Shown here piece by piece: positions 24,171 through 61,792 of a stretch of 64,000 bases of DNA. The DNA lies in NCBI RefSeq assembly GCF_015101885.1, contig NZ_CP062941.1:5124431-5188430 (forward strand), given 5' to 3'. The notes beneath the pieces are model-generated. The model searched no databases, was not told the origin of the DNA, and worked only from the letters and a program-made list of their open reading frames with translations. Made by a program: the position numbers and the translations under genes. Positions within the stretch are counted from its first letter, which is position 1, and each line of letters starts with the position of its first letter. Source of the DNA: Massilia litorea. Lineage in GTDB: Bacteria > Pseudomonadota > Gammaproteobacteria > Burkholderiales > Burkholderiaceae_D.

Positions 24171-24261
24171 GGAGAGATGGATGAGTGGTTTAAGTCGCAC
24201 GCCTGGAAAGCGTGTGTAGGTTCATAGCCTACCGGGGGTTCGAATCCCCCTCTCTCCGCCA
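24171..24261 (+). tRNA. serX: tRNA-Ser (GGA anticodon)
   Basis: A 91-base tRNA with acceptor GGAGAGA paired to TCTCTCC, discriminator G and encoded CCA. The anticodon arm shows CTGGAAA with anticodon GGA, reading UCC/UCU. The long variable arm (GTGTAGGTTCATAGCCTAC) is typical of serine tRNAs. The T-loop reads GGTTCGAATCC. Its 3' end is the attachment site of genomic island 1, and the tRNA stays intact because the island carries the matching 14 bases. The symbol is a guess based on the E. coli GGA isoacceptor. Confidence 0.96.
24248..24261 (+). other. attL core of island 1
   Basis: CCCTCTCTCCGCCA, the last bases of tRNA-Ser including CCA, is repeated exactly at 31520-31533. Similarity continues beyond it: AGACAACAGTG here versus GGACAACAATG there. 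Confidence 0.85.
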
Positions 24262-24302
24262 AGACAACAGTGTTCATGCGGGTTCCAGGCCCCTTCCTGG
24301 TT

Positions 24303-24326
24303 TCTACCCACACTTCTACCCATGTT
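24303..24326 (+). repeat. Arm-type repeat pair, left end of island 1
   Basis: Two tandem TCTACCCA units 12 bases apart, identical over 24 bases to 31368-31391 at the other end of the island and in the same orientation. This is the expected layout for integrase arm-binding sites on both sides of the core. The gap 24262-24439 contains nothing else recognised apart from an inverted repeat GAGCTTATA...TATAAGCTC near 24330-24359. Confidence 0.65.
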
Positions 24327-26112: not shown

Positions 26113-26349
26113 TTATCCACCTTTGCTAATAGGGGCCAGCCCGAGCAGCGCCGCCTGCCAACCCAATACCAGCAGATACCCATTTATCGCGGTCGGGTTG
26201 CTCCTTAAGGCACGCTGGAACGTCGCATGGGTGAGCGTGTTCAGACGCTCTAATTTCAGCGTCAGCAACTCGCTGCTGGCTTCGGCGATACCGCATTGCG
26301 CGGCCTCCACTGCAAGGCGCAGAAAGCGCCTGAGGCTGCCCTCCACCTG
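26113..26349 (-). pseudogene. Degenerate terminase-small-subunit-like remnant
   Basis: The C-terminal half of a protein paralogous to the one at 27425-27802. Both share ELLTL-LERLN-LT, then QRA and AINGYLLVL or ALNAYLLIL, ending AALLGL. Here the N-terminal half has no matching helix-turn-helix in any frame, so the copy appears truncated or decayed. Nothing else is recognised between 26040 and 26476. Confidence 0.5.
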
Positions 26350-27424: not shown

Positions 27425-27802
27425 TTACTTGGCGCGTTTGCGACTGGCATCCAGTCCGAGCAGCGCCGCGCGCTGGTCCAATATCAGCAAATACGCATTA
27501 AGCGCCCCAAGGTCGCCCGCTATGGCACGTTGGTATATCGCCAGCGTCAGGGCGTTCAGACGCTCTAATTCCAACGTCAGCAGCTCGTCCTTTGCTCGGG
27601 CGATGACAGCGTGGCCTAGCCCCCTCCGCAGCGCGAAAAAGGCGCCTGAGCGACTGCGGTAGCCGAGCTTGATGGCGATTTCGGAGTAGGTATGCCCGGC
27701 TTTGCGCATCTGAAGTGCCGCGAGCTGCTTGCTGGCAGCGCACAGCCGCCGTTGGGACGTTTTGCTTTCGCCGCGTCGCACTTTAGGCCTCCGTGCCGAC
27801 AC
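27425..27802 (-). CDS. Helix-turn-helix protein resembling phage terminase small subunit
   Basis: Basic protein of 125 residues. An N-terminal helix-turn-helix (about 25-60) has AALQMRKAGHTYSEIAIKLGY, followed by helices with DELLTLELERLNALT and GALNAYLLILDQRAALLGLD. The second part matches a pattern common in prophage proteins thought to be small terminase-like DNA-recognition subunits. The remnant at 26113-26349 is a paralogue. Function is inferred from pattern only. The 299 bases between this gene and the MobV-like gene (27803-28101) hold nothing recognised. Confidence 0.5.
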   Translation of the reverse strand: MSARRPKVRRGESKTSQRRLCAASKQLAALQMRKAGHTYSEIAIKLGYRSRSGAFFALRRGLGHAVIARAKDELLTLELERLNALTLAIYQRAIAGDLGALNAYLLILDQRAALLGLDASRKRAK

Positions 27803-28101: not shown

Positions 28102-28860
28102 CTACACCCGTTTTGGCATCGGCCTGGTCATCGTCTTCACGAATGCGCTCGGCGCTTTGTACGGCACGGGCACCGGCAAGCCGAGCACCGCCAGCAACGG
28201 CGCCGGGTTTTGCAGATGCGGTTCCAGCAGCACGCCCAAGACCGCGTCTGACAGCGCGTGGCCTTGCAAGGCGGCGAAGGTGCGCTCAAGCGCCAGGCGG
28301 TTCGCAAAGCGGTAGGTATCGAGCATGGTGGCCTTCGTCATCAGGCCATAGCGTTTTCCTACCTTGTCGTGGAAGTCGGCCAGCATGCCGCGCAGTTTGG
28401 CCTTGTTCCCGTACAACTCGGAACCGATCATGCGACCCTTCACTAAGGGCAGGACGAGGATGTGGCAGTGCGGTGCCGCCTCGTCGCGGTGCGTCACCGC
28501 GCTGAGCACCGGGGCGTTGAAGTGGCTCTCGGTCCACTTCACGGCGTCCGAGAAAACCGCATCTTGCAACTCGGCGTCCATTTCGGGCGGCAAACTGACG
28601 AGGACTTCCAAGCCGAGGACGGCATCCTTCCTCAAGCTACCGATACCGGCTTCGCGCATCAGGCGCTGCGCGAGCCGGGCGACCTCCACCGCTTCGCACG
28701 GACCGGCAATCACCTGGTTGAGGTGGCTGCGGCGGCTGTCGATCTTGGTAGCGGGCGAACGCCATTCCGCAGCGATCTCGCGCAAGTTGTGGCGTGCGGC
28801 CACCTCGATGATGTTTTTTTCTTTCAGCCGTTTGAGCGACACGAATTGGTGGTGGCTCAT
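28102..28860 (-). CDS. MobV/Pre-type plasmid recombination (relaxase-like) protein
   Basis: Protein of 252 residues resembling the N-terminal domain of MobV relaxases. Motif I region: ARHNLREIAAEW and SRRSHLNQVIAG. The HUH motif is HRDEAAPHCHILVLPL, with the family HxDExxPHxH spacing. LYGNKAKLRGMLADFHDKVGKRYGL is also typical. Full MobV relaxases are longer, so this may be a minimal relaxase or a replication initiator. It ends the minus-strand run that begins with the integrase and starts three bases after the upstream gene ends, consistent with one operon. Confidence 0.75.
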   Translation of the reverse strand: MSHHQFVSLKRLKEKNIIEVAARHNLREIAAEWRSPATKIDSRRSHLNQVIAGPCEAVEVARLAQRLMREAGIGSLRKDAVLGLEVLVSLPPEMDAELQDAVFSDAVKWTESHFNAPVLSAVTHRDEAAPHCHILVLPLVKGRMIGSELYGNKAKLRGMLADFHDKVGKRYGLMTKATMLDTYRFANRLALERTFAALQGHALSDAVLGVLLEPHLQNPAPLLAVLGLPVPVPYKAPSAFVKTMTRPMPKRV

Positions 28861-29110: not shown

Positions 29111-29299
29111 TTACTTCCCCCCGTTAACGAGGGTCGCGATGTCCTCGGCGCGCCACGCGGTCACGCGGGTCGAGAGCTTGACGCCTGCCGGGTAACGACC
29201 GGACTTGACGCCGGCCCACCAGGTCGATTTCGAGACCGGATAGACCTTGAGAACCGCGGACAGGCGCAGGTAAACGGGGATGTGGAGAGGGTCGGTCAT
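29111..29299 (-). CDS. AlpA family regulator/excisionase
   Basis: Protein of 62 residues with the AlpA pattern YLRLSAVLKVYPVSKSTWWAGVKSGRYPAGVKLSTRVTAWRAEDI. In CP4-57, AlpA turns on excision, and in Gram-negative phage-inducible islands it controls induction. It probably serves as excisionase or activator for island 1. It is 68 bases downstream of the large palindrome, which is a likely operator for it. Confidence 0.85.
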   Translation of the reverse strand: MTDPLHIPVYLRLSAVLKVYPVSKSTWWAGVKSGRYPAGVKLSTRVTAWRAEDIATLVNGGK

Positions 29300-29367
29300 G
29301 ATTTCCTTTCAGTTGGATGTTGATGGACATCTTGGTGCCCGGTAGGGCCTGAAAGGAGTCTGCAAGG

Positions 29368-29400
29368 CAATTGCCAAGTAACGACGTTACTTGGCAATTG
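29368..29400. promoter_or_regulatory. Perfect 33-base palindrome before the AlpA-like gene
   Basis: Arms CAATTGCCAAGTAACG and its exact complement flank a single central A. It lies three bases after the stop of the HTH protein gene. The inner part (CAAGTAAC, three bases, GTTACTTG) recurs in island 2 at 55878-55895, in the same position relative to its genes, so it is probably the operator of the HTH protein or AlpA. Confidence 0.7.
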
Positions 29401-29403
29401 AGT

Positions 29404-30099
29404 TCATTTTTCGTTGTTAATGACGTTGTGAATGGTCGTACGGCTGACGCCATATTGGCGCGATAAACCCTGGGTCACGTTATACGTTGACCCGCATTTT
29501 TGGGCGTCTCGATAGGTTCGGATGATCCGGCGTTTTTCTGCTTCTGTTAGCTTGCCCTTCTTTTCTCGATTAGCCGCATTTGCCGACGATTGCTTAACAG
29601 CCTGGTTAAGGGCGTCGAAAATCGGCACGTCGCCATATTCTTGGGCGAGAATACAAGCTCGCAGCAGTTTCACGGCCTGCTGCTCCGTCTCGGTTGGGTC
29701 ATACTTTTCTACCAAGCCGCAAAAACTTACGGCTTCGTCATCGTGGTACAAACTGGCCGCGTCGGCGTCCAAGCGCCAAACTGGAGACATGCCGCGCTTT
29801 CGATATTCGGCCAGAATGCGGTCGGAGGCCATAGGGATACGCGCGGCCACATTCAGCAGTTGTAACGCCGCGCTGGTGCGTAACTGCGCGACGAGGGCAA
29901 GACGGGCGGACGTTGTCCTCGCTTTGGCCATCCGCACGGCGATGTCAGGGTCGGTGAAAAAAGGTTGTGCCATCCTAACTGCCTGCTCGACGCCAAATCG
30001 CCGCCGTACCGGCGCATGTGCCGGTTTGTTTTCCAACTCGTTGATTGCTACCTGATCGGCCTGGGCAGTTTCAGGCTCTGCTTGATCTTGTTTTTGCAC
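29404..30099 (-). CDS. Island regulator with C-terminal helix-turn-helix (island 1)
   Basis: Protein of 231 residues of unknown family. Residues about 1-180 are predicted helical with no recognised domain. The C-terminal 50 residues form a helix-turn-helix: KLTEAEKRRIIRTYRDA, then TQGLSRQYGVSRTTIHNVI. The island 2 protein at 55356-55877 has a clearly related C-terminus (RRI..Y.D, Y.VS.TTIH). The GTG start at 30099 has GAGAGG about five bases upstream. It lies 41 bases after the integrase and before the AlpA-like gene, with a palindrome just beyond its stop, suggesting it controls the AlpA promoter (inference). Confidence 0.6.
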   Translation of the reverse strand: MQKQDQAEPETAQADQVAINELENKPAHAPVRRRFGVEQAVRMAQPFFTDPDIAVRMAKARTTSARLALVAQLRTSAALQLLNVAARIPMASDRILAEYRKRGMSPVWRLDADAASLYHDDEAVSFCGLVEKYDPTETEQQAVKLLRACILAQEYGDVPIFDALNQAVKQSSANAANREKKGKLTEAEKRRIIRTYRDAQKCGSTYNVTQGLSRQYGVSRTTIHNVINNEK

Positions 30100-30140: not shown

Positions 30141-31388
30141 TTATGCCGGCTCACGCACACGGATAGGAACAACTTCGCCCATCGCCTCGCCCTTCTTGGC
30201 GCAATGGGTAGCCCATGTTTCCATTAACGCCCGACGCTTTTCAAAAAGGTCACTCCTGAAATAGGCCGCTTCCGTCGAGTCCTTGATGGTATGAGCCAGG
30301 GCCGCCTCGCATACCTCGCGCGGGTAGGACGTGCGCTCGGCACACCAGTCCCGGAAAGTAGAACGGAATCCGTGGGCGGTGAACGTATAACCGAACCGGC
30401 GCAGCAGCATGGTGAAAACCATGTTGCTCAACATGCGTCCTTTTTGGTTGGCGAATACCAACTCGGAGCCAGTGTCGCGCCTGTGGGCCAGGATTTCCAG
30501 GCAGCGCGGGGCCAGGGGAATGCGGTGTTCGCGTGACGCCTTCATCCTTTCAGCAGGGATCACCCAGCGTTTTTGGGCGAAGTCGATTTCGGACCAGCGC
30601 GCCCCAAGGACTTCGCCTGTGCGGGCCGCTGTCAAGATGAGGAACTCGAAGGCGTCCCGGACCACTTCTTCGGCGCCCGACATGCGAACGGCATTGATGA
30701 CTTCGTTGACGACCAGGTAGGGACATGCCTCGAAATGCTTGGGCTTCTTGGCCTCGCTCGCACTGGGCAGCGCGCGGCTGATTTGATCCCACATATGCGG
30801 ATCATGGTTCTGGCGATAGTCGCGTGCGGCAGCCCAATCCAGTACCGCCCTGATGCGCTGGCGTACGCGGGCAGCAGTCTCCGGCTTCGTAGTCCAGATC
30901 GGCTCCAGCGCCCGCAGCACATCGGCTTTGGACACGGCCGTGACATCCTTTTTGCCGAACACCGGGTAAGCGTATGTCGTCAGAGTGTTAATCCATTGAT
31001 CGCCGTGTTTAACATTCTTCCAGGACGACCGCTTCAGCACATGAAGCTCGGCCGCGCATTGCTCAAAGGAGCGGCGCTGGGCGGCCGCCAGCATGATTTT
31101 GGCGTGCTCGGCATTACGGTGGTCAATGGGGTCGATCCTTTGCGTCAGCAGCTTGCGATAGCCTTGGGCCATTTCGCGGGCCTGTGCGAGGCCATAAAGC
31201 GAAGCCGAGCCAAGGCCCATTTCCCTGACACGTTTATTCAGGCTGTAGCGCAGTACCCAGGACTTTGCGCCTGAGGCAGATACCTGCAAATACAGGCCGT
31301 CGCCATCGCCGTAATAGCCCGGTTTTTTCTTCCCGTTGATGGCCAAGGCCGTGAGTTTGTTCCGCTCTCTACCCACACTTCTACCCAT
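30141..31388 (-). CDS. P4-type tyrosine integrase
   Basis: Integrase of 415 residues with the N-terminal arm-binding domain (LTALAINGKKKPGYYGDGDGLYLQVSASG...WVLRYSL), a SAM-like core-binding domain (about 105-195) and a tyrosine recombinase catalytic domain. Visible catalytic residues are Arg in ILTAARTGEVLGARW, HGFRSTFRDW, ALAH and the Tyr in AAYFRSDLFEKRR. It catalyses site-specific recombination at tRNA-Ser. The start codon lies within the right arm-type repeat, so bound integrase may repress itself (inference). Confidence 0.93.
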   Translation of the reverse strand: MGRSVGRERNKLTALAINGKKKPGYYGDGDGLYLQVSASGAKSWVLRYSLNKRVREMGLGSASLYGLAQAREMAQGYRKLLTQRIDPIDHRNAEHAKIMLAAAQRRSFEQCAAELHVLKRSSWKNVKHGDQWINTLTTYAYPVFGKKDVTAVSKADVLRALEPIWTTKPETAARVRQRIRAVLDWAAARDYRQNHDPHMWDQISRALPSASEAKKPKHFEACPYLVVNEVINAVRMSGAEEVVRDAFEFLILTAARTGEVLGARWSEIDFAQKRWVIPAERMKASREHRIPLAPRCLEILAHRRDTGSELVFANQKGRMLSNMVFTMLLRRFGYTFTAHGFRSTFRDWCAERTSYPREVCEAALAHTIKDSTEAAYFRSDLFEKRRALMETWATHCAKKGEAMGEVVPIRVREPA

Positions 31389-31391
31389 GTT
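31368..31391 (+). repeat. Arm-type repeat pair, right end of island 1
   Basis: Same 24 bases as 24303-24326, with TCTACCCA twice at a 12-base spacing. It overlaps the integrase start codon (complement of 31386-31388) and lies 128 bases from the right core site. Confidence 0.65.
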
Positions 31392-31442: not shown

Positions 31443-31519
31443 TTATTTTTTCTTTAAATACAATAACTTAAGTGTAAACTTTGGGCGATATTGGACAAAA
31501 TGGACGATGGTTATAAAGA

Positions 31520-31533
31520 CCCTCTCTCCGCCA
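31520..31533 (+). other. attR core of island 1
   Basis: CCCTCTCTCCGCCA, the exact copy of the tRNA-Ser 3' end at 24248-24261. It marks the right boundary of the island. Confidence 0.85.
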
Positions 31534-31539
31534 GGACAA

Positions 31540-31579
31540 CAATGCAAAAAGGCCACCCTCGGGTGGCCTTTTTGCATTG
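31540..31579. terminator. Strong hairpin terminator, probably the original one of tRNA-Ser
   Basis: A stem of 19 base pairs (arms from CAATGCAAAAAGGCCACCC) with a T-run in the right arm. It follows the right att core by six bases. Before island insertion it would have stood just after tRNA-Ser, so it is likely the displaced tRNA terminator. Confidence 0.75.
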
Positions 31580-31589
31580 TTTCCTGTCG

Positions 31590-49913: not shown

Positions 49914-50303
49914 TCAGCTACGGTTCGGGTTGTTCGGACGCGCATCGTCGCGGTTGCGGATGCCGTCGCCATCGCGGTCGCCGTTCGGGCCGCGGCGCCA
50001 GCCGCCGCGCTCCAGGGTCCAGCCGTTATCGCCCTGGCGCCATTCCGGGCGGGAATACACATAACCATGGCGGACTTTTTCGTAGTGGCCCTTCACCCAG
50101 GTGTAGCGATGGCCGTTCCAGTTCCAGTAGCCAGGCGCCCATTCGTAGCCGCGGCGTGCTCGCGGAGTCGATTCGTGGCGCGGCGCAGGCGGCGCCTTCT
50201 GCACGACGATCACTTCGGTGCGGCTGTGCTGGGCTTGTGCCACCGGGGCGAAAGCGGCGGTGCTGATCACGGCTGCTGCAAGAGTGATGAGGATTCGTTT
50301 CAT
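49914..50303 (-). CDS. YXWGXW-repeat exported protein
   Basis: Exported protein of 129 residues: signal peptide 1-23 (ending AQAQ), a Pro-rich linker, then the repeat region [33 protein letters not shown], related to the YXWGXW repeats, and a basic Asp/Asn-rich tail [17 protein letters not shown]. Likely an envelope protein of unknown role. The ATG at 50303 has GGAGCACTACC before it, and the longer upstream reading is not signal-like. Confidence 0.85.
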
Positions 50304-50495
50304 GGTAGTGCTCCTTTCGGTTCGGTGTGAGACCACTATAGCCAGACGTTCCAGTGCACAGTAGAACTGATGCAAGTGCTTACAATCGATACATTTGGCC
50401 AGATTCCATTAACAGACTGGAAACCTTATGCTACCTCGGCAGGCGTTTTGCCAGCGCACGGTCGAGCTTGCCATTGAATCGGGAATCCACAACAA

Positions 50496-50523
50496 AACAG
50501 CCGGCGCAAAGGCCGGCTGTTCT
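50496..50523 (-). terminator. Terminator after the TonB-domain gene
   Basis: AACAGCCGGC, six-base loop, GCCGGCTGTT, with a T-run on the minus-strand side. It lies 23 bases beyond the stop of the TonB-C-like gene. Confidence 0.8.
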
Positions 50524-50545
50524 TCATGCAGGGATCGACGGATGA

Positions 50546-50890
50546 TCAGTCGAGCTTCCATGCGTAGTCGACCTTGGCCCAGGTTTGCGCTGGTGCGCCA
50601 TCCTTGGTGCCCGGCTTGAACTTGCAAGCCGACAGGCCTTTTTGGGCTGCCTTGTCGAGGCCTTTGAAGCCGCTCGACTTTTCCAGCTTCGAGTCGGCGA
50701 CGCTGCCGTCGGTGTTGACCAGGAAGGACATCGAGGTCGTGCCCTGCTCTTCATTCATCAGCGAGGCTTTCGGGTATTCGACCTTGCACTTCGACGGGTC
50801 GAACGAGGCCGGGACTTCACCGGCGAATGCCGAGCCGGCGATGGTGGCGAAAACGAGGGTGGCGATGGCGCTCAGGTAAGGCTTTTTCAT
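50546..50890 (-). CDS. Exported TonB C-terminal-domain-like protein
   Basis: Protein of 114 residues with a signal peptide (1-23, ending SAFA) and a small TonB_C-type domain: CKVEYPKASLMNEEQGTTSMSFLVNTDGSVADSKLEKSSGFKGLDKAAQKGLSACKFKPG. Two Cys residues could form a disulfide. It lacks the N-terminal membrane anchor and the Pro-rich spacer of true TonB, so it is a periplasmic relative and probably not an energy transducer. GGGA precedes the ATG at 50890. Confidence 0.82.
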   Translation of the reverse strand: MKKPYLSAIATLVFATIAGSAFAGEVPASFDPSKCKVEYPKASLMNEEQGTTSMSFLVNTDGSVADSKLEKSSGFKGLDKAAQKGLSACKFKPGTKDGAPAQTWAKVDYAWKLD

Positions 50891-50972
50891 GATTTTTATT
50901 TCCCAAAAAGGTAGTTGGTCTGCCGCTGACTGCCTGCGGTCTTTCAGTGAGTCCGGCTGGATTCGCCGTAAA

Positions 50973-52739
50973 TTAAAATTCTTCCCATTCGTCGCTGCCC
51001 GCTGCAACCGGTGCCTTCTTCGGCTTGGCCGGAGCTGCCGCAGCGGCGGGCTTCTTCAGTGCCGCGCGCGGCGTACGTGCCGGACGCGCTGCCGGCGTAC
51101 GCACTGCCGGCAAGGTCGCTACCGGTGCCGCTGGTGCCGGCGCTGCCAAAGTCGGCTCGACGCTCTGCTCTTCGCCTTCGACCAGCTTGAAGATGCTGAC
51201 CACGCGGCCCAGTTCGCCGGCCTGGTCCTGCAGGCTCTGGGCGGCGGCGGCTGCCTCTTCGACCAGGGCTGCATTCTGCTGGGTCATGCTGTCCATCTCG
51301 ATGATCGACATGTTCACCTGCTCGATGCCGGCGCTCTGCTCGGCGCTGGCGTTGGCGATCTCGCCCATGATGTCGGTTACGCGCTTGACGCTCGCCACGA
51401 CTTCATCCATCGTCACGCCGGCCTGGCCGACCAGCTTGCTGCCGCGCTCGACCTTCTCGACGGAATCGCCGATCAGGGTCTTGATCTCTTTGGCCGCCGC
51501 AGCCGAACGCTGGGCCAGGCTGCGCACTTCGGAAGCCACGACCGCGAAACCACGGCCCTGCTCGCCGGCACGTGCCGCTTCGACTGCCGCGTTCAGCGCC
51601 AGGATGTTGGTCTGGAAGGCGATGCCGTCGATGACGCCGATGATGTCGGCGATCTTGCTGGCCGAGCTGTTGATCTCGCCCATCGTGCCGACCACTTGCG
51701 ACACCACGTCGCCGCCCTTGCGGGCCACGTCCGAGGCGCTGGCCGCCAGCTGGTTCGCTTCACGAGCGTGCTCGGCGTTCTGGCGGACGGTGGTGGTGAG
51801 GGTTTCCATGGCCGAGGCCGTCTTTTCCAGCGAGCTGGCCTGCAGTTCGGTACGCGAGGACAGGTCGATGTTGCCGGCGGCGATTTCACGCGAAGCGGTG
51901 CCGATGGTCTCGGTACCGCGGCGCACCTGGCTGACGATGTCGACCAGGCTGTTGCGCATGCCGTTCATTTCGGCCAGCAGGCTGCCTTGTTCAGCGGTAC
52001 GGGTGTCGATGGCGATCGCCAGGTTGCCGTGGGCAATGCTGCCCGCGATCTTCGTGGTGTAGTCCGGCTCGCCGCCCAGTTGTTTGATCAGGCCGCGGGT
52101 GATGACCCAGGCCGCAGCGACGCCCATCACGACGGCGACGGCCAGCAGCACCAGCATGAAGTTACGGGCGTTGACGAATGCACTGGCCGCGTCTTCCTGG
52201 CTCTGCAGGCTCTGCTTGTCTTCCAGCTCCACCAGCTTGTCGAGCGCTTCGGTCCACTTCTTCTGGACAGGACGCACTTCCTTGATCATGACGCGGGTGG
52301 CGCTCATGGCGTCGTTCTTCAGGTACAGCTCGGACGCCTTGGCAATGGCAGGCATCGCGGTGGCTTCATGGCCCTTGATCTCGGCCAGCAACGCCTTTTC
52401 GGCGTCGGTGCCTTCGGCGCCGAAGATCTTGCTGACCTTGCTCTGGGCCGCGTCGTACTTGGCGGTCTGCTCCTTGAACTTCTTGAGCTCCGGTTCCATT
52501 TCGGTCGCGTCGGTCATCAGGGTCAGCACGCGCAGCGAGGCCAGGCGGTCACTGACGTTGTTGCGCATCTCGATGACGGCGCGGCTCGACACGTTGTTGA
52601 CGCTGACCACGTGGTCGAGGCGGTCCTGGATCTGCGCCATGCGCAGGACGCCGACCACGGTGACCGCGACGAGCAGCACCAGCACCAGGGCGAAGCCCAG
52701 TCCCAGGCGCATGCCGACTTTCATCTTCGATAAATTCAT
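50973..52739 (-). CDS. Methyl-accepting chemotaxis protein
   Basis: Chemoreceptor of 588 residues: membrane helix about 8-30, periplasmic four-helix-type sensor (about 35-190), second helix about 190-212, HAMP (about 213-265) and a cytoplasmic signalling domain with hairpin tip GVIDGIAFQTNILALNAAVEAARAGEQGRGFAVVASEVRSLAQRSA. The C-terminal tail is Ala/Pro/Lys-rich and ends DEWEEF, an xWxxF-type tether that can recruit CheR or CheB. The sensed ligand is unknown. Confidence 0.95.
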   Translation of the reverse strand: MNLSKMKVGMRLGLGFALVLVLLVAVTVVGVLRMAQIQDRLDHVVSVNNVSSRAVIEMRNNVSDRLASLRVLTLMTDATEMEPELKKFKEQTAKYDAAQSKVSKIFGAEGTDAEKALLAEIKGHEATAMPAIAKASELYLKNDAMSATRVMIKEVRPVQKKWTEALDKLVELEDKQSLQSQEDAASAFVNARNFMLVLLAVAVVMGVAAAWVITRGLIKQLGGEPDYTTKIAGSIAHGNLAIAIDTRTAEQGSLLAEMNGMRNSLVDIVSQVRRGTETIGTASREIAAGNIDLSSRTELQASSLEKTASAMETLTTTVRQNAEHAREANQLAASASDVARKGGDVVSQVVGTMGEINSSASKIADIIGVIDGIAFQTNILALNAAVEAARAGEQGRGFAVVASEVRSLAQRSAAAAKEIKTLIGDSVEKVERGSKLVGQAGVTMDEVVASVKRVTDIMGEIANASAEQSAGIEQVNMSIIEMDSMTQQNAALVEEAAAAAQSLQDQAGELGRVVSIFKLVEGEEQSVEPTLAAPAPAAPVATLPAVRTPAARPARTPRAALKKPAAAAAPAKPKKAPVAAGSDEWEEF

Positions 52740-53210
52740 TTCGCTTCCTAGCTGTTGATCAGATTTGCTTCGGTGGTGCCGTCGTCGGAGGCTGCGTTCC
52801 CTAACGGCAAGTCTTTCCCGTAGGATAAATCAAAAACTTACCGCCAAGGCTCGAAAACAGTGCAGTTATCAAAAAACGCAGGGCCGGGCGCAGAACGTTT
52901 TGTTGCAAATCCTCAATTCCGTGTTCGAAATTATGGAGCGGACCTTGCCATAGAGCAAGCGCAGCCTTCACCTGTCTACACAAATTTATATTTCCGTGTA
53001 GTAAATTTCCTACATGCAAGCAAAACAGCACGCATGTTCTTGTCGTACGCACCATAGCTGGTGACATAGGGCAATCGACATGATTGCCTCGACAATAACT
53101 GAACTACAAGAAGTGGGATTGGGAGAACGAAGCGCCTGCGAGCGCTGGGAGCAAACAGGAAGGCGAAGCAGGCGGCTGTCTGGCAGCCACCTGCCGGTAA
53201 GGCGATGGCC
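52740..53210. other. Intergenic region, no feature recognised
   Basis: About 470 bases between the chemoreceptor start and the dusA stop. It is AT-richer than its neighbours. I see no credible gene, tRNA or strong terminator apart from a weak hairpin GTAAGGC/GCCTTAC at 53197-53214 across the dusA stop. Confidence 0.4.
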
Positions 53211-54212
53211 TTACAGGCTGCGGATCTGGGCTGCCGCTTCCAGCAACAGGCCGGGGTTGGCCGTGGCCAGCCTCTTCGGGTCCGACAACATCTGGCGGAA
53301 GGCACGCGCCCCCGGCAGGCCGGCCGTCAAACCGAGCATGTGGCGCGTGATGCTGTTGAGCTTGAGGCCATGCCCGCCATATTGCGCGAGCTGGGCGGCG
53401 ATATACGGCACCATCGCCGCCAGCACCTCGGCGCGCGTCTTCGGCGCGGCGTCGTCGCCGTAGAAGCGGGCGTCCCAGTTCGCCATCGAATACGGGTTGT
53501 GGTAGGCCTCGCGGCCGAGCATGACGCCGTCCACGTGCTGCAAGTGCAGCGCGATTTCGTCATCCGTCTTGATGCCGCCGTTGATGATGATTTCCAGCTC
53601 CGGAAACTCACGCTTGAGTGCATATGCCACTTCGTAGCGCAGCGGCGGAATCTCGCGGTTCTCCTTCGGCGACAGGCCCTTCAGGATGGCATTTCTCGCG
53701 TGGACGATGAAGGTGCGGCAGCCGGCATCGGCGATCGTACCGACGAAATCACGCACAAAACCGTATTCCTCGTCCTTGTCGATGCCGATCCGATGCTTCA
53801 CCGTGACGTCGATCGACACCGCATCGCGCATCGCCTTGACGCAGTCGGCCACCAGCTGGGGCTCGTTCATCAGGCAGGCACCGAAGGCGCCGCGCTGCAC
53901 GCGCTCGGATGGGCAGCCGCAATTGAGGTTGATCTCGTCATAGCCCCACTCCTGGCCCAGCTTCGCGCTTTTCGCGAGGTCAAGCGGCTCGCTGCCGCCC
54001 AGCTGCAGCGCGACCGGATGCTCGATCTCGTCAAAACGCAGGTGGCGCTCGACGTCGCCGTAGACCAGGGCGCCGGTGGTCACCATCTCTGTATACAGCC
54101 AGGTATGGCGCGTGATCTGGCGGTGGAAGACGCGGCAATGGCGGTCGGTCCAGTCCATCATGGGGGCTACACTCAGTAACCTACTGTTTTTGTTACTCTT
54201 TTCGTTGTTCAT
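53211..54212 (-). CDS. dusA: tRNA-dihydrouridine(20/20a) synthase, 5' end remodelled by island 2
   Basis: FMN-dependent enzyme of 333 residues reducing U20/U20a in tRNA. Motifs: SVAPMMDWTDRHCRVFHRQI, LYTEMVTTGALVYG, LQLGGSEP, EINLNCGCPSERVQRGAFGACLM with the catalytic Cys, and GGIKTDDE. Only the codons from MMDWTD onward are original. The first about 22 residues (MNNEKSNKNSRLLSVAP) come from island 2, which inserted in this gene. An ATG at 54212 is the likely new start, with a TTG at 54230 possible. Promoter and ribosome site must now come from the island. Confidence 0.93.
   Translation of the reverse strand: MNNEKSNKNSRLLSVAPMMDWTDRHCRVFHRQITRHTWLYTEMVTTGALVYGDVERHLRFDEIEHPVALQLGGSEPLDLAKSAKLGQEWGYDEINLNCGCPSERVQRGAFGACLMNEPQLVADCVKAMRDAVSIDVTVKHRIGIDKDEEYGFVRDFVGTIADAGCRTFIVHARNAILKGLSPKENREIPPLRYEVAYALKREFPELEIIINGGIKTDDEIALHLQHVDGVMLGREAYHNPYSMANWDARFYGDDAAPKTRAEVLAAMVPYIAAQLAQYGGHGLKLNSITRHMLGLTAGLPGARAFRQMLSDPKRLATANPGLLLEAAAQIRSL
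54148..54165. other. att site, left end of island 2 (inside dusA)
   Basis: GTCCAGTCCATCATGGGG, exact copy at 61797-61814. It spans the codons for P-M-M-D-W-T of dusA. Confidence 0.88.
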
Positions 54213-54232
54213 TTTGGCTATGTGCAGCAATC

Positions 54233-54252
54233 AGTGCACACGTCGTGCACAC
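54233..54252 (+). repeat. Arm-type repeat pair, left end of island 2
   Basis: AGTGCACACGTCGTGCACAC, two TGCACAC units 11 bases apart. It matches 61741-61760 in 18 of 20 positions and has the same orientation. It lies 57 bases before the integrase start, consistent with integrase arm sites. Confidence 0.65.
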
Positions 54253-54309
54253 AGGGTAAATAATTCGTTCATAATCCGGGCATAACTCAACATACATGAA
54301 TTGCACACG

Positions 54310-55359
54310 ATGGCGACAATAACGAAGCTACCCAGCGGGAAATGGCGGGCACAGGTTAGGAAAGGTGGCATGTACCGGGGAGAGACGTTCACCCGAAAGC
54401 GTGACGCTGAGTCATGGGCGAAACAAGTAGAAGTTCAAGCGGAGCACATTGTTGCGAGCGGATACCAGCCCGTACCAGAAGGTTATAGCGTAGGCGACCT
54501 AATCGACGGTTACGCCCAAGAGTGTAACATGGGCGGCCGCACCAAACAGGCAACCCATGCCATGCTGAGGCGGGAGCTAGGGAGCGTTCCGCTGAAACGC
54601 CTCAACAGTATCCACTTGCGTGACTTCATCGACATAAGAGTTAAAGCTGGTGCTGGCGGCGTGACGATTGCCGCAGACCTGTCCTTCTTCGGGGCGATCT
54701 TAAAGTGGGGCAAGCACTCCAGACGGATGGACCTGCCGACTGACCTCGCCCGTGATGCGCGCAGGGATTTGAGCGCCCGAAACGTGAGCACCCGCAGTAG
54801 TGAGCGTGATCGCGAGCCAACCACGGCTGAACTCGAAAAGCTTTACGCATTCTGGACTGCCAACAAGCGCCAGACGATCCCCATGGCGACTCTCTGCGCG
54901 TTTGCCCTTGCTACAGCCATGCGCCAAGACGAGATTTGCTCGATCCAACTAGAAGATGTGGATGCGGAGAAGCGCACGGTTATCATTCGCGACCGGAAGG
55001 ACCCCCGCAAGAAAGAAGGAAACCACCAAACGGTTCCCCTGCTACCTGCTGCATGGGCACTAGTCGAACCACTACTGGCAATGCGAAAGATTGGACGGGT
55101 GTTTCCATATCAGGCATCCAGCGTAAGTACAGCATTCACCCGTGCATGTGCCAAGGTGGGCATCGAAGACCTTCGGTTCCACGATCTTCGGCATAAGGCC
55201 ACAAGCGACCTGTTCCGCCTTGGGCTGTCAATTCCAGAGGTTGCGGTACTGACAGGTCATAAAACGTGGACCCAACTGAAACGCTACACCCATACCAATT
55301 CGGAAGATGTACACGCGGCTGTGTTGGCGTTATCCAAAGTTCAGACTCAGACACCATGA
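54310..55359 (+). CDS. Tyrosine integrase of island 2
   Basis: Integrase of 349 residues, a different subfamily from that of island 1. The short N-terminal AP2-like part (ITKLPSGKWRAQVRKGGMYRGETFTRKRDAESWAKQ) is followed by a core-binding domain (about 60-160). The catalytic domain shows Arg in FALATAMRQDEI, HDLRHKATSDL, LTGHKTW and the nucleophile Tyr in YTHTN. ATG at 54310; a TTG three codons earlier is possible. dusA is a known target of this integrase class. Its stop overlaps the HTH gene start (ATGA). Confidence 0.92.
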   Translation: MATITKLPSGKWRAQVRKGGMYRGETFTRKRDAESWAKQVEVQAEHIVASGYQPVPEGYSVGDLIDGYAQECNMGGRTKQATHAMLRRELGSVPLKRLNSIHLRDFIDIRVKAGAGGVTIAADLSFFGAILKWGKHSRRMDLPTDLARDARRDLSARNVSTRSSERDREPTTAELEKLYAFWTANKRQTIPMATLCAFALATAMRQDEICSIQLEDVDAEKRTVIIRDRKDPRKKEGNHQTVPLLPAAWALVEPLLAMRKIGRVFPYQASSVSTAFTRACAKVGIEDLRFHDLRHKATSDLFRLGLSIPEVAVLTGHKTWTQLKRYTHTNSEDVHAAVLALSKVQTQTP

Positions 55360-55877
55360 CAAAAATTACTGACGAACCATTCAACGGCTTCCCAGCAGAC
55401 GGTACACCTGTACAGTTCTTCGAGTGCGTGCAGCGTGCTCTTACGTGGCTTGAACCCTACCTGAACGACAACGACATCAACCACGCTACCTTAGTCGCAT
55501 ATTGCCGCTCATATGCCAATTTGGTGTTCTGTGACGGCGAGCAACAAGCGTACGACAGTCAGGAATCGCTGAATGCAGCGTTGAAACAGGTAGTAGTCAA
55601 ACAGCAGCAGATCGTGACCGTTTTCAGCGGAGTACGGAACTCCATTTTGTCGGCACAGGCGCTTGCTCAGGTCGAAAGCCATAGCAAGACCCAGAGCGAG
55701 CGAGCATCGAAGCCTCGAAAACTGGAGGAAAGCGACTGCCGCCGCATCGCGAAGCGGTACTGGGACAGCAAAGCGGATGGGACCAGCTACGGTATTGTGA
55801 AGGCGCTTGCGGCTGAATACGATGTTAGCCCGACAACCATCCACGCCACAGCGAAAAAGTACAACCCGCTGAATTGA
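55356..55877 (+). CDS. Island regulator with C-terminal helix-turn-helix (island 2)
   Basis: Protein of 173 residues. An acidic N-terminal region (about 1-115) shows no known domain. The C-terminal helix-turn-helix has KLEESDCRRIAKRYWDS, VKALAAEYDVSPTTIHA and is homologous to the island 1 protein at 29404-30099. It overlaps the integrase by four bases (ATGA), so it is translated with it. A palindrome related to the one in island 1 follows its stop at once. Confidence 0.6.
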   Translation: MTKITDEPFNGFPADGTPVQFFECVQRALTWLEPYLNDNDINHATLVAYCRSYANLVFCDGEQQAYDSQESLNAALKQVVVKQQQIVTVFSGVRNSILSAQALAQVESHSKTQSERASKPRKLEESDCRRIAKRYWDSKADGTSYGIVKALAAEYDVSPTTIHATAKKYNPLN

Positions 55878-55895
55878 CAAGTAACCGGGTTGCTG
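55878..55895. promoter_or_regulatory. Candidate operator, counterpart of the 33-base palindrome in island 1
   Basis: CAAGTAACCGGGTTGCTG starts directly after the stop of the HTH gene. It matches the core CAAGTAAC-N3-GTTACTTG of the island 1 palindrome (29368-29400) at all but two symmetric positions. It is 52 bases upstream of the Xis-like gene. Confidence 0.65.
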
Positions 55896-55947
55896 AATAC
55901 TCGCACCTTACAGTTCAGTCCTCATCAACAACAGCAGAGGATCTGAA

Positions 55948-56202
55948 ATGCAGGCAACCCACACCACCACCCCCAACGTAGCCGACCTAGCCCGGCTTGT
56001 GAACTGCCTAGACGAGCATGGCTTTGCCACGCTTGCAGGAGTTAAGGTGTCCACACTTGACGCATGGCGCAAACGAGGCCAAGGCCCGGAGTACGTCTTG
56101 CTCGGCAGGAACTACCTGTACCCTATCGCCGCAGTCGAGCGCCACCTTTCTTCACTTGTCAGAACTCGTAGTCCCAGCAATCCAGCGAAGACACTGATGT
56201 AG
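55948..56202 (+). CDS. AlpA/Xis-like small DNA-binding protein
   Basis: Protein of 84 residues with an excisionase-type helix-turn-helix: LNEHGFATLAGVKV-like stretch LDEHGFATLAGVKVSTLDAW, then RKRGQGPEYVLLGRNYLYPIAAVERHL. This fits the MerR/AlpA-like Xis family with a helix and wing. Ribosome site GAGGATCTGAA before the ATG. Position matches that of AlpA in island 1. Probably excisionase or replication regulator. Confidence 0.7.
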   Translation: MQATHTTTPNVADLARLVNCLDEHGFATLAGVKVSTLDAWRKRGQGPEYVLLGRNYLYPIAAVERHLSSLVRTRSPSNPAKTLM

Positions 56203-56702
56203 TCGATTCTCTATCGCGAAGACAGAAAACCACAGCCTGGTTGAGCATTTCACTACGTTTTATATGTAATAGCGTTGCTGAATTTTTGAGCAGACTGGAT
56301 GCGGCGGTACCGCACTGACATCAACTGAGACAGCGCCAACTCAACAGCCTATCCAAGGCAATATAAGGCCCCTAGGAGGCGCTCAAAGAAGAAGTTGGTA
56401 GGCAGGTAGCCACCAAGAAGAAATCCACTCAGAAGACCGCTATTCCAAGATAGATAGCAAGCAGCACAGTTTGAAACACGTTATCGACAGGAATCCCGAT
56501 TCGCCTCTTTGGAAGAAAGCCATTATCTCAGGCTCTCCTATGATGACGGAGTTCTCTTGACCTGTCAATGAAAGCAGTGATTTAAGCCGTTTTAAGCACT
56601 CCCATATAGGAGAAACCCCTAACCCGCTCGTGTACCACCGCCAATTTGTACTAGTAAGTAAGGAGAAGCAGTGTAGGAGCAGTAACAGAAGGAGTATCAA
56701 CA
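56203..56702. other. 500-base non-coding stretch, candidate replication origin region
   Basis: AT-richer region between the Xis-like and Gp2-like genes with no credible gene. As the next gene is an HUH replication protein, its origin could lie here, but I see no clear iterons or nicking hairpin. The segment ends with a good ribosome site (GAAGGAG) for the Gp2-like gene. Confidence 0.25.
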
Positions 56703-57254
56703 ATGAAGAAGGAAGAGACAGCCATTACACTAGCCAACGGTGGAATGCACAGCCAGAAGGCATACCGGAAGATAAAGGATATGCTCAACAATAACTACTA
56801 CACCTCCCCACGCCTCTACCATCTTGTAATGATGGGTTCGGAACAGAGCCGAGACTACCAAGCAGCCATGAAGGCTCTTTGCCTCGAACTACGCAGGAAG
56901 GAGATCCCCTGTCAGTGGAAGGGTTGTCTTGAAGTAGAAGACGAGAAGGGATTGCATTTTCACGTGTTCATCCTGGCCGAAGCAAAGTATCGCAACCCAT
57001 GCTCCGTCCTCAACCATAACTCCCAGCACTGGCTGAACGTGATGATGCAGAAACGTGAACTGACCTACTACATCGCACCACCAGAGAACCCCATGCACCG
57101 CACGAGACTGGGTAAGCGGGTGAACTACGCCACCCTAGCTGGGGACAAACTCGCAGACTGTCTGGTTTGGATTTCGTATCTCGTAAAGAGTCGATCTAAG
57201 ATTCAAGGGATGAGTCGCACCTACTTCGGGAGCCAACCCAACCGCGCTTGTTAG
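56703..57254 (+). CDS. Inovirus Gp2/YagK-YfjJ-type HUH replication protein
   Basis: Protein of 183 residues resembling the domain of inovirus Gp2 and of YfjJ/YagK from cryptic prophages. The segment GCLEVEDEKGLHFHVFILAEA has the HUH pattern HFH after a strand, and an Arg/Tyr-rich region follows (LTYYIAPPENP, VWISYLVKSRSK) with candidate Tyr nucleophiles. It would nick an origin to start rolling-circle-like replication. Somewhat shorter than usual, so the C-terminus may be reduced. Confidence 0.7.
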   Translation: MKKEETAITLANGGMHSQKAYRKIKDMLNNNYYTSPRLYHLVMMGSEQSRDYQAAMKALCLELRRKEIPCQWKGCLEVEDEKGLHFHVFILAEAKYRNPCSVLNHNSQHWLNVMMQKRELTYYIAPPENPMHRTRLGKRVNYATLAGDKLADCLVWISYLVKSRSKIQGMSRTYFGSQPNRAC

Positions 57255-57329
57255 GAGAAAGCGTCGTACAGGCCAACGCTACTACCTTGGCGAAAGGTAA
57301 GCGCAAAGCAGCTCCCAGTTCTGCTCGCG

Positions 57330-57635
57330 CTACCGTTGTTTTGCAAAGGCCCTGCGACATTTCTCGAACATTCGCTGATAAGCGCTTTTCGATGGGACGT
57401 TTTCCTCATACACCCAAAGTACGGTGTTTACAACAAACGGCGCAGCCGAGTCTTTTGAGTCAAGCTTCCCTTCCCTTATGAGTGCTCGAAGAAGCTCGTC
57501 TTGAGACACTCCTCTGTCCCGCTGCTCAGCGGACATCTTTGCTAAAGCTGCCATCGGCCTACATACACTATCATCGGCAAATGCATGCGATGCACCTAAG
57601 ATCGCAAAGGAAAAAATCAGTGTTGTACGAAGCAT
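57330..57635 (-). CDS. Small exported protein of unknown function
   Basis: Protein of 101 residues with a signal peptide (1-20, ending HAFADD) and a helical body containing two Cys residues (CRPMAALA and EKCRRAFAKQR). No recognised domain. It is on the strand opposite to most island 2 genes and stands alone as probable cargo. Confidence 0.55.
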   Translation of the reverse strand: MLRTTLIFSFAILGASHAFADDSVCRPMAALAKMSAEQRDRGVSQDELLRALIREGKLDSKDSAAPFVVNTVLWVYEENVPSKSAYQRMFEKCRRAFAKQR

Positions 57636-57747
57636 TTAATTTTCCCGTCGTTAAAGTGATCTAGTATATTAACGAATGGAAAACATTGCTATCTCTAAGC
57701 GAGCAACTCCATATTTCTAACAATTATGCTTTCAACAGAGGGTTGGT

Positions 57748-58317
57748 ATGCGAACCGTATTACTTCATCTAGAACGCCTGCAACGTCACTACGAAGCCTC
57801 GGTACGATCCTACGATGAAGTTTCATTACTTGATCTCTCGCACTCCCTTCGCGTATGGGCTGATCTCAAAACGGTGTTGCCACAGTTAGCTCCCGCGTTT
57901 TCCAAAACCTTGAGCTTCAAAACTTCTACGCCTGCAAAGAAAGTCTTACGCGCAGCACGTGGCTCTCGATTCGTCTTCGCTTTCATGCCCGGGGGAGTGA
58001 TTACGTACGCAGCCAATGGAAGCATTGTCACAGGCCCTCAGGATATCAAGGATAGATCTTTCACTGTCGGGGTCAGCTGCAAAATCAACACTGATGGCTC
58101 GATGGAGCTAAAAAATTACTCTTTTATGGAAGTTGCCAGCGACCAACCAATGGTCAAGGCTGCTGCGGCAGAGGATGTCTCCCGCTGCAACTACTCCCAA
58201 TGGCTTGGAGCTGAAGCTGTAAGGATGTCGTATCCAGACAAGACCGGCGAGCTGAAAATAGTATCGATTACGAGGGAAATGCTGGCATTCCCCCACCAGC
58301 GCGGACACTTTCGATAG
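57748..58317 (+). pseudogene. Unknown gene interrupted by an IS3-family element (5' part)
   Basis: Reading frame of 189 codons, but the last five (GHFR and the TAG stop) come from the left inverted repeat of the IS. The native part is 185 codons: a helical N-terminus (LERLQRHYEASVRSYDEVSLLDLSHSLRVWADL), then a beta-rich domain (RFVFAFMPGGVITYAANGS, TVGVSCKINTDGSMELKNYSFM). No family recognised. The 3' part continues in frame at 59501-59584. Confidence 0.6.
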
Positions 58318-58344
58318 GTATGATGTCCCTATCGGAGGAGTTAC

Positions 58345-58632
58345 ATGGCACGTGAAAGACGGTTGTTTTCAGAAGAGTTCAAGCGCGAGGCAGTCAAGCT
58401 GGTAGGCCAGCCTGGTGCAAGCAAGGCGGCGATCGCCCGCGACCTTGGCATTGGCGCCAATTTGCTGGGGCGGTGGTGCAGAGACGCCAACGTGGATGCA
58501 GAGGTTACGGGCGGGGGCGAGAAGGTATCGACCCAGGAATATGAGCGCATGCGGCGCGAGCTGGCAAAGGTCAAGACGGAGCGCGACATCTTAAAAAAGG
58601 CGCTCGGCTACTTCGCAGCCGACCTCAAGTGA
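58345..58632 (+). CDS. IS3-family transposase OrfA
   Basis: Protein of 95 residues with a helix-turn-helix (FSEEFKREAVKLVGQPGASKAAIARDLGIGANLLGRW) and a C-terminal leucine-zipper-like helix (YERMRRELAKVKTERDILKKAL). It binds the IS ends. The A6G run near its end allows -1 frameshifting to make OrfAB. It overlaps OrfB by four bases. Confidence 0.9.
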   Translation: MARERRLFSEEFKREAVKLVGQPGASKAAIARDLGIGANLLGRWCRDANVDAEVTGGGEKVSTQEYERMRRELAKVKTERDILKKALGYFAADLK

Positions 58633-59489
58633 AGTACGGCTTCATCGCCAAATATAGAGCCATCTGGCCAACGCGAACGATGTGTCGTCTGCTTGGTGTG
58701 TCGAGCAGTGGTTTTTACGACTGGCTCGGCCGACCAATAAGTGCGCATGAACGTGAGAATGCGCAGCTCCTCAAGGCGATCAAGCACAGCCACGAAGCCA
58801 GCGATGGCACATACGGTTCGCCGCGCGTAGTGCGAGACCTTATCGATGCTGGCTTTGCCTGCAGTGAGAACCGCGTGGCACGGCTGATGAAAGCTGCCGG
58901 CATCAAGGCCCGCCACAAGCGTCGCCGCGCACCTGGGCAGCTCGATTCGCCAGTCCACGCCATCGCGCCGAACCTGCTGGACCGGCAATTTGAAGCGCCA
59001 GGCCCGAACCAGAAATGGGCTGCTGACTTTACTTACGTATGGACTGGCGAAGGCTGGCTGTTTGTCGCTGTCGTCCTTGACCTGTACTCGCGGCGTGTGG
59101 TGGGCTGGTCGATGCAACCGACCATGACAGCGCAGCTGGTAATGGATGCCCTGCTGATGGCCATCTTCCGCCGCGGCCGGCCTCGGGCAGTATTGCATCA
59201 CTCGGACCAGGGCTCGCAATACACCAGCGAAGACTTCCAGCGCTTGCTCGAATCGCACGGCATCGTTTGCAGCATGAGCCGTCGCGGCAACTGCTGGGAC
59301 AACGCTGCAATGGAAAGCTTCTTTTCGACGCTGAAAACCGAGCGGCTGAGCAAAAAGCACTACCGGACCAGGGATGATTTACGGGCAGACGTGTTCGACT
59401 ATATCGAAAGGTTCTACAATCCACGCCGGCGTCATTCCACTCTCGGGTATATCAGCCCGGTACAGTTTGAAAACCTAAAATGCGCCTAA
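58629..59489 (+). CDS. IS3-family transposase OrfB (DDE)
   Basis: Catalytic subunit of 286 residues, with an HTH_21-like N-terminus (DGTYGSPRVVRDLIDAGFACSENRVARLMK) and an rve integrase core. DDE residues are visible: WAADFTYV, LHHSDQGSQY, and the Glu in DNAAMESFFSTLK. The tail RRRHSTLGYISPVQFE is typical. It should be produced as the OrfAB fusion. The frame is intact, so the IS is probably active. Confidence 0.92.
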   Translation: MKYGFIAKYRAIWPTRTMCRLLGVSSSGFYDWLGRPISAHERENAQLLKAIKHSHEASDGTYGSPRVVRDLIDAGFACSENRVARLMKAAGIKARHKRRRAPGQLDSPVHAIAPNLLDRQFEAPGPNQKWAADFTYVWTGEGWLFVAVVLDLYSRRVVGWSMQPTMTAQLVMDALLMAIFRRGRPRAVLHHSDQGSQYTSEDFQRLLESHGIVCSMSRRGNCWDNAAMESFFSTLKTERLSKKHYRTRDDLRADVFDYIERFYNPRRRHSTLGYISPVQFENLKCA

Positions 59490-59500
59490 CGGAAGTGTCC

Positions 59501-59584
59501 GTGACGATGGGGGAAGGCCATGCTGATTCGGAGGGTCGCAAATACGCTCGATGGGTCGCATCCGTCAGCAGCTCACGAAGTTAG
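59501..59584 (+). pseudogene. 3' remnant of the gene interrupted by the IS
   Basis: Directly after the IS, an open frame reads VTMGEGHADSEGRKYARW to a TAG at 59582. Joining 58302 to 59501 keeps the frame of the upstream gene, giving a protein of about 212 residues without the IS. Confidence 0.5.
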
Positions 59585-59808
59585 CGAATTCGAGAACAGC
59601 TACGATCCTGCTGTTCATTACTTGCTTCAGTACTCAATGGGAGGGTTATCGCTTCCTTACTTCATCTTGCTGAAGATTGCCCAAGATATCGTCGCTATTG
59701 CTCCGAAGCTACTCCGCATCGAGTCCCAAACCGTCCCCACGTAAAATCGTTCTGTTAAATGTGCAAGAAGTACACCTTGATGAACACACTAAAACAGCCG
59801 AGAAACAC

Positions 59809-59875
59809 TGTTCAACAAGGCCGTAAAAGATAGTTGTTGCACATATTCCAACAATCTCTTAGACTTTGTTGAACA
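59809..59875. repeat. Inverted repeat upstream of the serine recombinase, res-like
   Basis: TGTTCAACAA (59809-59818) and TTGTTGAACA (59866-59875) are exact inverted copies 47 bases apart, just before the recombinase gene. They could be subsites of a recombination (res) site or its operator. Confidence 0.45.
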
Positions 59876-59896
59876 CATCAACGAAGGAGAAGGTGA

Positions 59897-60454: not shown

Positions 60455-60678
60455 TTACGATAGCCGTAAATACGGCTTACTCCTTTCATCCCGTAATGAC
60501 TCGTACTTCGTTCAAAAACTGCTCAGTATCCAAAAAGTAGTTCGGATATGCTCTTTTGAGTGAATTTATCGAGGACACGGATACGAGAACCACGCGCACT
60601 GACGAGCCAGCAGGAATAAGGCTTTCAGCGGTTGTATATTCATGGTGTGCAAGTCTGGACTGTTCTTGCGATACCCTC

Positions 60679-61760: not shown

Positions 61761-61792
61761 GAACCTCTTGAAACCCGCATGAATACTGGAAA

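Follow-up and report, generated by a model that had tools for sequence, protein, structure and literature searches.

The window analysed here, a stretch of 64,000 nt, forms the end of contig C1 (5,188,430 bases) of the Massilia litorea genome, which comprises two contigs (5.35 Mb). It holds two islands with a G+C content of 57.5% (island 1) and 52.7% (island 2), compared to 63.3% for the window. Island 1 is flanked by a repeated tRNA-Ser 3' end (24237-24272 and 31509-31544, 81%), the tRNA-Ser itself being at 24171-24261. Island 2 is inserted in the 5' end of dusA, between the copies of an 18-bp perfect repeat (54148-54165 and 61797-61814); an integrase adjoining the dusA 5' end together with a direct repeat, the combination by which dusA-inserted islands are recognized, was found for island 2 only. 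The integrases of the two islands differ in their Pfam domain make-up. The features of island 1 are as follows, in the direction of transcription.

30141..31388, minus strand: tyrosine integrase (Pfam Arm-DNA-bind_3, Phage_int_M, Phage_integrase)
29404..30099, minus strand: HTH1, HTH-tailed protein of 231 aa, GTG start, C-terminus homologous to that of HTH2
29386..29403, minus strand: conserved 18-bp element ACTCAATTGCCAAGTAAC, starting 1 nt past the stop codon
29368..29400, no strand: perfect palindrome of 33 bp (15+3+15), exact, overlapping the element
29357..29362, minus strand: putative -10-like box CAGACT, 29 nt after TTGCCA; weak, 3/6 to consensus
29349..29357, minus strand: predicted hairpin 5' arm TCCTTTCAG
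29304..29312, minus strand: predicted hairpin 3' arm CTGAAAGGA, containing the alpA SD; 9-bp perfect pairing
29124..29299, minus strand: AlpA-like protein (PF05930, 22.3 bits, cut-off 21)
28102..28860, minus strand: MobV-like relaxase (Mob_Pre, PF01076, 56.9 bits, cut-off 25.5)

The corresponding features of island 2 lie on the other strand.

54307..55359, plus strand: dusA-type integrase, 76-90% identity across 7 dusA islands
55356..55877, plus strand: HTH2, HTH-tailed protein of 173 aa, overlapping int by ATGA
55868..55885, plus strand: conserved 18-bp element GCTGAATTGACAAGTAAC, spanning the HTH2 stop codon
55880..55894, plus strand: dyad AGTAAC-CGG-GTTGCT, after the stop codon
55909..55914, plus strand: -10-like box TACAGT of a putative promoter, 29 nt after TTGACA
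55916..55923, plus strand: predicted hairpin 5' arm CAGTCCTC
55937..55945, plus strand: predicted hairpin 3' arm GAGGATCTG, with one bulged T, containing the xis SD
55948..56202, plus strand: xis-like small HTH protein (HTH_17, PF12728, 19.6 bits, below the cut-off of 27), conserved in dusA islands
56703..57254, plus strand: HUH protein, REP_ORF2/G2P-like, replaceable (25.4 bits, just under the cut-off of 27.8)

Several other repeats were seen in the islands. A perfect 24-bp repeat near both ends of island 1 (24303-24326 and 31368-31391; TCTACCC twice) overlaps the int start and looks like arm-type integrase sites or the relic of a tandem island. A 28-nt repeat (82%; 54225-54252 and 61733-61760) with GTGCACAC-like motifs, found close to either end of island 2, probably represents integrase arm sites. 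Island 1 also contains a diverged duplicate (71%; 26122-26289 and 27437-27604) within a small HTH-like gene (27425-27802 matches phrog_645). The cargo of island 2 includes a RelA/SpoT-domain protein (60679-61497), possibly a defence gene, with a serine resolvase (59897-60454) and an IS3-like element (58345-59489) as neighbours. The contig start (C1:1-13772) repeats the contig end (window 50241-64000) at 99.8%; this repeat of island 2 is most likely an untrimmed overlap of a circular contig, a real duplication being the possible alternative.

The C-termini of HTH1 and HTH2, which the preliminary description had taken to be homologous, proved to be so when compared (37% identity across 62 residues, pairwise E=2e-10), and the HTH1 tail is 29-37% identical to the other tails. 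C-terminal helices are predicted for HTH1 (residues 181-230, block pLDDT 76-88), and its AlphaFold model (mean pLDDT 63.9) gave no Foldseek match at E≤0.001. For neither protein does a Pfam or NCBIfam match reach the cut-off, the best PHROG match having E 0.059. HTH1 has three other close homologous proteins (P0002-P0004, the closest named one being P0002, ACI48D_04860, from Massilia sp. LXY-6), and further HTH homologues are P0025-P0033; all of these are known as proteins only. No further full-length match to HTH1 was found in 392 genomes of the family and 62 of the genus (overlapping sets). No relatives of HTH1 or HTH2 were found in the viral contigs searched, plasmids and phages gave no match to either in tblastn, and the genome contig collection gave none to HTH2, though the xis search found relatives there. 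The int and HTH genes overlap by 4 nt in 7/8 dusA loci (8 nt in L025), and because of the 4-nt overlap they are probably co-transcribed; in island 1, a 41-nt gap separates the two genes, with no overlap.

The search with HTH2 identified eight other genomes among 392 of the family at E≤0.001. One of these hits, L027, was left out, being a 747-aa transposase-like frame (E 6e-4). The seven remaining relatives (L020-L026) are dusA islands, with integrases 76-90% and xis-like proteins 54-86% identical. Together with islands 1 and 2 they make up nine loci, eight of them at dusA, that have a firm tail match and DNA past the stop codon; the island 1 version of the element comes from a single HTH1-type locus with DNA after the stop codon. 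A profile of all HTH proteins gave ten further weak matches (E 7e-4 to 0.009), which were left out of the counts: the best one, L178 (E 7e-4), showed no element among the 60 best places listed, and the nine others (E 0.0016-0.0086) stand outside the nine-locus count. The xis alignment refound six of the seven relatives among genome contigs, from Duganella, Massilia and Herbaspirillum, with one doubtful match (L064); across the order it matched in 36/399 genomes, with only generic-looking matches outside the window's own genome. Relatives of the island 1 integrase occur in 70/368 genomes at E≤1e-60. In 20 regions with such an integrase, some ending at contig ends, no match to HTH1 was found, and the sole palindrome-like place lies in L141, with 3 mismatches.

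All nine loci carry an element of the general form ACTCAATTGaCAAGTAgC plus a dyad where the HTH-tailed gene ends, at its stop codon; thus the homologues of the HTH proteins with a firm tail match do keep the site, as the preliminary description had predicted. Aligned at the stop codons, it reads ACTCAATTGACAAGTAGC, then CGG, then a partial mirror. It starts between -25 and +1 relative to the end of the stop codon and lies in all three frames (0, 1, 2), and since it is read in three frames among the nine loci, it is conserved as DNA and not as protein. The 33-base palindrome originally reported in island 1 is indeed perfect and ranks second in the window among perfect palindromes with spacers of 0-8, the first being 31538-31581. 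As the general form of the site it did not hold: it is perfect in island 1 only, of the nine loci, and the dusA relatives have short imperfect dyads. Conservation extends 12 nt upstream of the dyad. The same site had also been placed right after each stop codon, which is correct for island 1; in island 2 the element spans the stop codon and only the dyad follows it.

The statistical weight of the element comes mainly from matrix scans. A weight matrix built from the seven relatives alone placed the island 1 element at rank 1 of 127,966 window positions, and 0/1,096,776 background positions reached its score, in a background that includes one copy of the island 2 element, scoring slightly lower than island 1. 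In leave-one-out scans, the element was the best place in each of the seven relatives' loci (14-16 kb each). With a nine-locus matrix applied to all loci, the places above 22.1 bits are element copies behind an HTH tail, and the next one is in L132 (22.1). Pairwise element alignments are weaker than the matrix because the site is so short (p 0.0025 to 0.013 for 3/8 partners and 0.03 to 0.56 for the other five). Three mismatches separate the island 2 copy (55878-55896) from CAAGTAACNNNGTTACTTG; with up to that number allowed, this sequence occurs at three places in the window, the third at 27413, and in shuffles on average 0.09 times. The 15-mer CAATTGNCAAGTARC at ≤1 mismatch was found in the 5.35-Mb genome only in the two islands and in the near-identical island 2 repeat; at ≤2 mismatches the whole genome gave 18 matches, compared to 19 for the reversed control, and nothing further. 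The palindrome core was also found in eight stretches of viral contigs, which were taken as chance since none of them encodes the 19 island query proteins or HTH homologues (tblastn). A weak second copy of the element (76%) lies in island 2 at 56259-56283, upstream of the HUH gene; the motif scans did not recover it.

It is worth noticing that the recognition helix of the HTH protein varies together with the element core: TTI accompanies AAGT (6/6), TVR accompanies AAA[CT] (2/2) and TAI accompanies AAGC (1/1), a co-variation spotted post hoc by eye in nine loci that are not independent of one another. From the shared tail, the shared site and this helix/core match in the nine loci, we infer that the HTH protein binds the element.

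Downstream of the element, a promoter-like box is kept at a fixed distance. From TTGnCA to TAxAGT (TAcAGT or TAaAGT; CAGACT in island 1) there are exactly 29 nt in 7/9 loci, the exceptions being L023 (30) and L025 (32 for TAATGG or 30 for CATAAT), and the stretch between them is little conserved. A random hexamer fits NANANT at a given spacing with a chance of 1/64, so the island 1 box is by itself weak support. In island 2, a rival promoter may be formed by TTGACA-16-AATACT, from which the start would fall upstream of the hairpin.

The 5' arm of a predicted hairpin directly follows the box, and the xis/alpA SD falls within its 3' arm. Such a hairpin is predicted over the SD in 9/9 loci, so that the SD lies within an inverted repeat, as in fold-back inhibition. 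The arms of island 1 (TCCTTTCAG/CTGAAAGGA, loop 36) have another sequence than those of the dusA loci, in the same place. In hand-aligned arms of the eight dusA loci, the inner five pairs are Watson-Crick in 40/40 cells and the outer pairs often break; two-sided changes occur at three of the inner five pairs, in L020 (pairs 2, 3 and 5) and L021 (pairs 3 and 5). The cost of opening the SD in the read-through message is 7.1-11.9 kcal/mol (median 9.9) in the nine loci, compared to 1.8-3.6 kcal/mol (about 3.0) for messages starting 6-10 nt past the box; the low cost for a message that starts inside the arm is partly trivial. The median cost for 20 dusA-type xis genes is 7.9, versus 4.7 for 129 controls, which are frames of ≥200 codons with starts picked by the best SD (Mann-Whitney p 2e-5, an optimistic value given the relatedness among these xis genes). 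Stems of at least 6 bp were found in 11/20 of these xis genes versus 9/129 controls, and the stem of island 1 has 9 bp, the maximum among the controls being 8. When the sequence upstream of the fixed SD was dinucleotide-shuffled, 9/21 genes were matched in strength by ≤1/60 shuffles, namely those of the two islands of the window, of L020, L022, L024 and L026, and of three viral contigs. Among the element-bearing loci this gives 6/9, the others being L021 (3/60), L023 (13/60) and L025 (29/60). The xis relatives in viral contigs (L073-L080, L085, L086, L088, L089) show several other SD hairpins, of which 3/12 clearly beat the shuffles. AlpA genes occur in 43/62 genomes of the genus; 30 loci were read and 29 measured, and because the SD hairpins among these 29 are mixed, the hairpin is not an AlpA rule (stems here allowed G-U and several starts are doubtful, so these figures are not comparable with the 20-versus-129 stem counts). 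The inverted repeat at the SD could equally be a DNA operator instead of an RNA hairpin.

In other dusA-type elements from viral contigs (L073, L075-L079, L086, L088), one or more genes lie between int and xis, some of them with another kind of DNA-binding-like C-terminus, and a hairpin unrelated in sequence is often predicted at the SD of xis.

An AlpA/Xis gene had been assigned to both islands. This stands for island 1, where the match to PF05930 is borderline and the place is missing from the output of a six-frame search of the genome with this family. The island 2 protein matches neither PF05930 nor a PrtN model, and BLAST does not align the small HTH proteins of the two islands with each other. 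The HUH proteins do differ between the islands, matching different families as the preliminary description had stated (the island 1 relaxase gives 70.5 bits with NCBIfam MobV, below the cut-off of 100), but the idea that the HUH gene belongs to the unit was not upheld: an HUH2-like protein is present in only 2/7 relatives, L022 (89%) and L025 (38%), and in the other five (L020, L021, L023, L024, L026) a DUF5906 protein of 444-473 aa takes its place. An HUH2-like protein (32%) also lies behind island 1-type integrases in L128 and L129, and this distribution indicates that the replication gene is exchanged separately. What remains of the shared module is the HTH tail and the DNA element, found with different integrases, at a place where the xis-like gene could be controlled; that it controls excision is what we infer. 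Overall, the shared site is confirmed, and its interpretation is partly supported.

The gene layout resembles that of the PICMI satellites of Vibrionaceae, small elements with the order int, overlapping gene (most often by ATGA), alpA and replication gene (PMC10803314). In PICMI115 the genes are int, iolg (sharing an ATGA overlap with int), alpA, prim, up1 and up2; phage-induced excision requires int, iolg and alpA, and expressing alpA is enough to trigger it (PMC10803314). Its early regulon consists of alpA, up1 and prim, the mode of activation by the phage being left open by the authors (PMC10803314). A gene overlapping int (iolg) is present in 21/35 subfamilies, and iolg-type genes fall into 13 families of unknown function; induction and packaging depend on a helper phage, and alpA is described as a putative excisionase (PMC10803314). 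Like PICMI, the dusA islands have int and an int-overlapping gene, and the DUF5906 replication gene is shared by 5/7 relatives, whereas islands 1 and 2 carry HUH proteins and no DUF3987/DUF5906 primase was found in their 19 scanned ORFs. With respect to AlpA, island 1 scores above the cut-off of PF05930 (22.3 bits, cut-off 21), and island 2 stays below that of PF12728 (19.6 bits, cut-off 27). PICMI lie beside fis, whereas the islands described here are at dusA or tRNA-Ser, in Massilia and relatives. Because of the site and the lack of DUF5906 among the genes found in islands 1 and 2, the dusA islands are not filed as PICMI; the likeness is one of gene layout. An arrangement of int, overlapping gene, alpA and replication gene is therefore known, and to that extent the claim that the module is undescribed does not hold; the words "palindrom" and "operator" are absent from the main text of the PICMI report, an SD hairpin was not seen in its description of these satellites (PMC10803314), and no description of such an element, or of an SD hairpin before xis/alpA, was found in titles and abstract beginnings of the open-licence literature.

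Other known systems share single traits. The dusA-associated islands and their integrases have, like island 2, a site in the dusA 5' end, an adjoining integrase and a direct repeat, and the main text of that report has no occurrence of excisionase, directionality or AlpA (PMC4482086). RdfN of Vibrio dusA elements, needed for excision from dusA and under a dedicated regulated promoter, is a small DNA-binding protein like the island 2 xis product; it has a PrtN domain (PMC8409611), unlike the latter, which matches HTH_17 weakly and no PrtN model. The Pseudomonas islands that a jumbo phage moves also have int, AlpA, an HTH protein and an inovirus Gp2-like protein, but use a tmRNA site and carry AlpA at the element's far end (PMC12595487).

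The common element and the SD hairpin in two unrelated islands suggest a small shared switch that would lock the islands in the chromosome. Directly supported are the conserved element, its position and spacing, the possible hairpin with two-sided changes and the homologous tails. In the proposed mechanism, the gene after int would encode a protein whose DNA-binding tail is conserved and whose N-terminus varies; the operator of this protein, at the stop codon of its own gene, would cover the upstream part (about -34) of the alpA/xis promoter. Binding would probably activate this promoter, repression being less likely, because a TAxAGT-like -10 is present without any -35 that can be recognised at the normal spacing. 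As long as the switch is at rest, both int and the HTH gene would be expressed, and the read-through message would fold into the hairpin hiding the xis SD, so that Xis would not be produced. Once the xis promoter fires, transcription would start in the hairpin 5' arm, leaving the SD free, and Xis would be made; the island would then leave and replicate with the replication gene that follows (HUH or DUF5906 protein). In fold-back inhibition of IS10 transposase translation, reportedly described by Davis, Simons and Kleckner in 1985, a repeat is said to hide the SD in read-through messages, and the element's own promoter to start inside the repeat. The switch proposed here differs in standing before a xis/alpA gene and in having an operator-like element upstream; the start inside the repeat is here a prediction. 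That the whole is a small exchangeable control cassette for excision, with HTH binding, start site, direction of control and excision all deduced from sequence, is a proposal for and against which we see the chances as balanced. A wider version of it is more tentative: the iolg-position gene of PICMI-like islands may be a regulator with an operator at its own stop codon driving xis/alpA, xis may be translatable only from that promoter owing to fold-back inhibition of read-through, the cassette may pass from island to island even where their integrases and replication genes are unrelated, and the variable N-terminus may sense the inducing signal.

The same observations can be read the other way round, with the HTH protein as a repressor that sits on the element, keeps the xis promoter off and is released when a phage or stress signal inactivates the variable N-terminus. 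The position of the element and the helix/core co-variation fit this too, variable N-termini would suit sensing, and promoter control of an AlpA excisionase has a precedent in alpA of CP4So in Shewanella, repressed at its promoter by H-NS (PMC5148205). However, the absence of a -35 where the dyad sits favours an activator, and loss of iolg, to which the HTH genes are likened by layout, abolishes excision of PICMI115 (PMC10803314), which makes repression rather unlikely. It is improbable that the element is the binding site of an excision complex (AlpA/Xis, or the HTH protein as an accessory excision factor) and not a promoter operator. The PICMI authors do place IOLG in an excision complex with Int and AlpA, not at a promoter, leaving open how the three cooperate (PMC10803314). 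Yet the nearer att repeat is about 1.7 kb away from the element in island 2 and about 2.1 kb in island 1, the 29-nt spacing to the promoter-like box is kept in 7/9 loci, and the element is common to islands whose AlpA/Xis proteins do not align. That the palindrome acts as RNA, or as a terminator separating xis from the HTH gene, is very improbable: the predicted fold has a 15-bp perfect stem and the site is terminator-like on the plus strand, opposite to the genes, but the minus strand (the gene strand) has no T run following and no terminator listed there by the scan, and short imperfect dyads in the dusA relatives with conservation reaching upstream of them do not fit. Least probable of all is shared ancestry without function, by recent copying of the HTH gene end and the following DNA between islands; the tail is homologous too, but 18 bp are kept next to a diverging spacer and coding sequence (29-37% identity for the HTH1 tail), and different loci read through the element in different frames.

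If activation by the HTH protein combined with fold-back inhibition is correct, then the gene next to int would be a regulator with a target site defined to the base, and fold-back inhibition would be extended from transposases to excisionases. It would also explain how excision is kept off where an island transcribes int together with the gene that follows.
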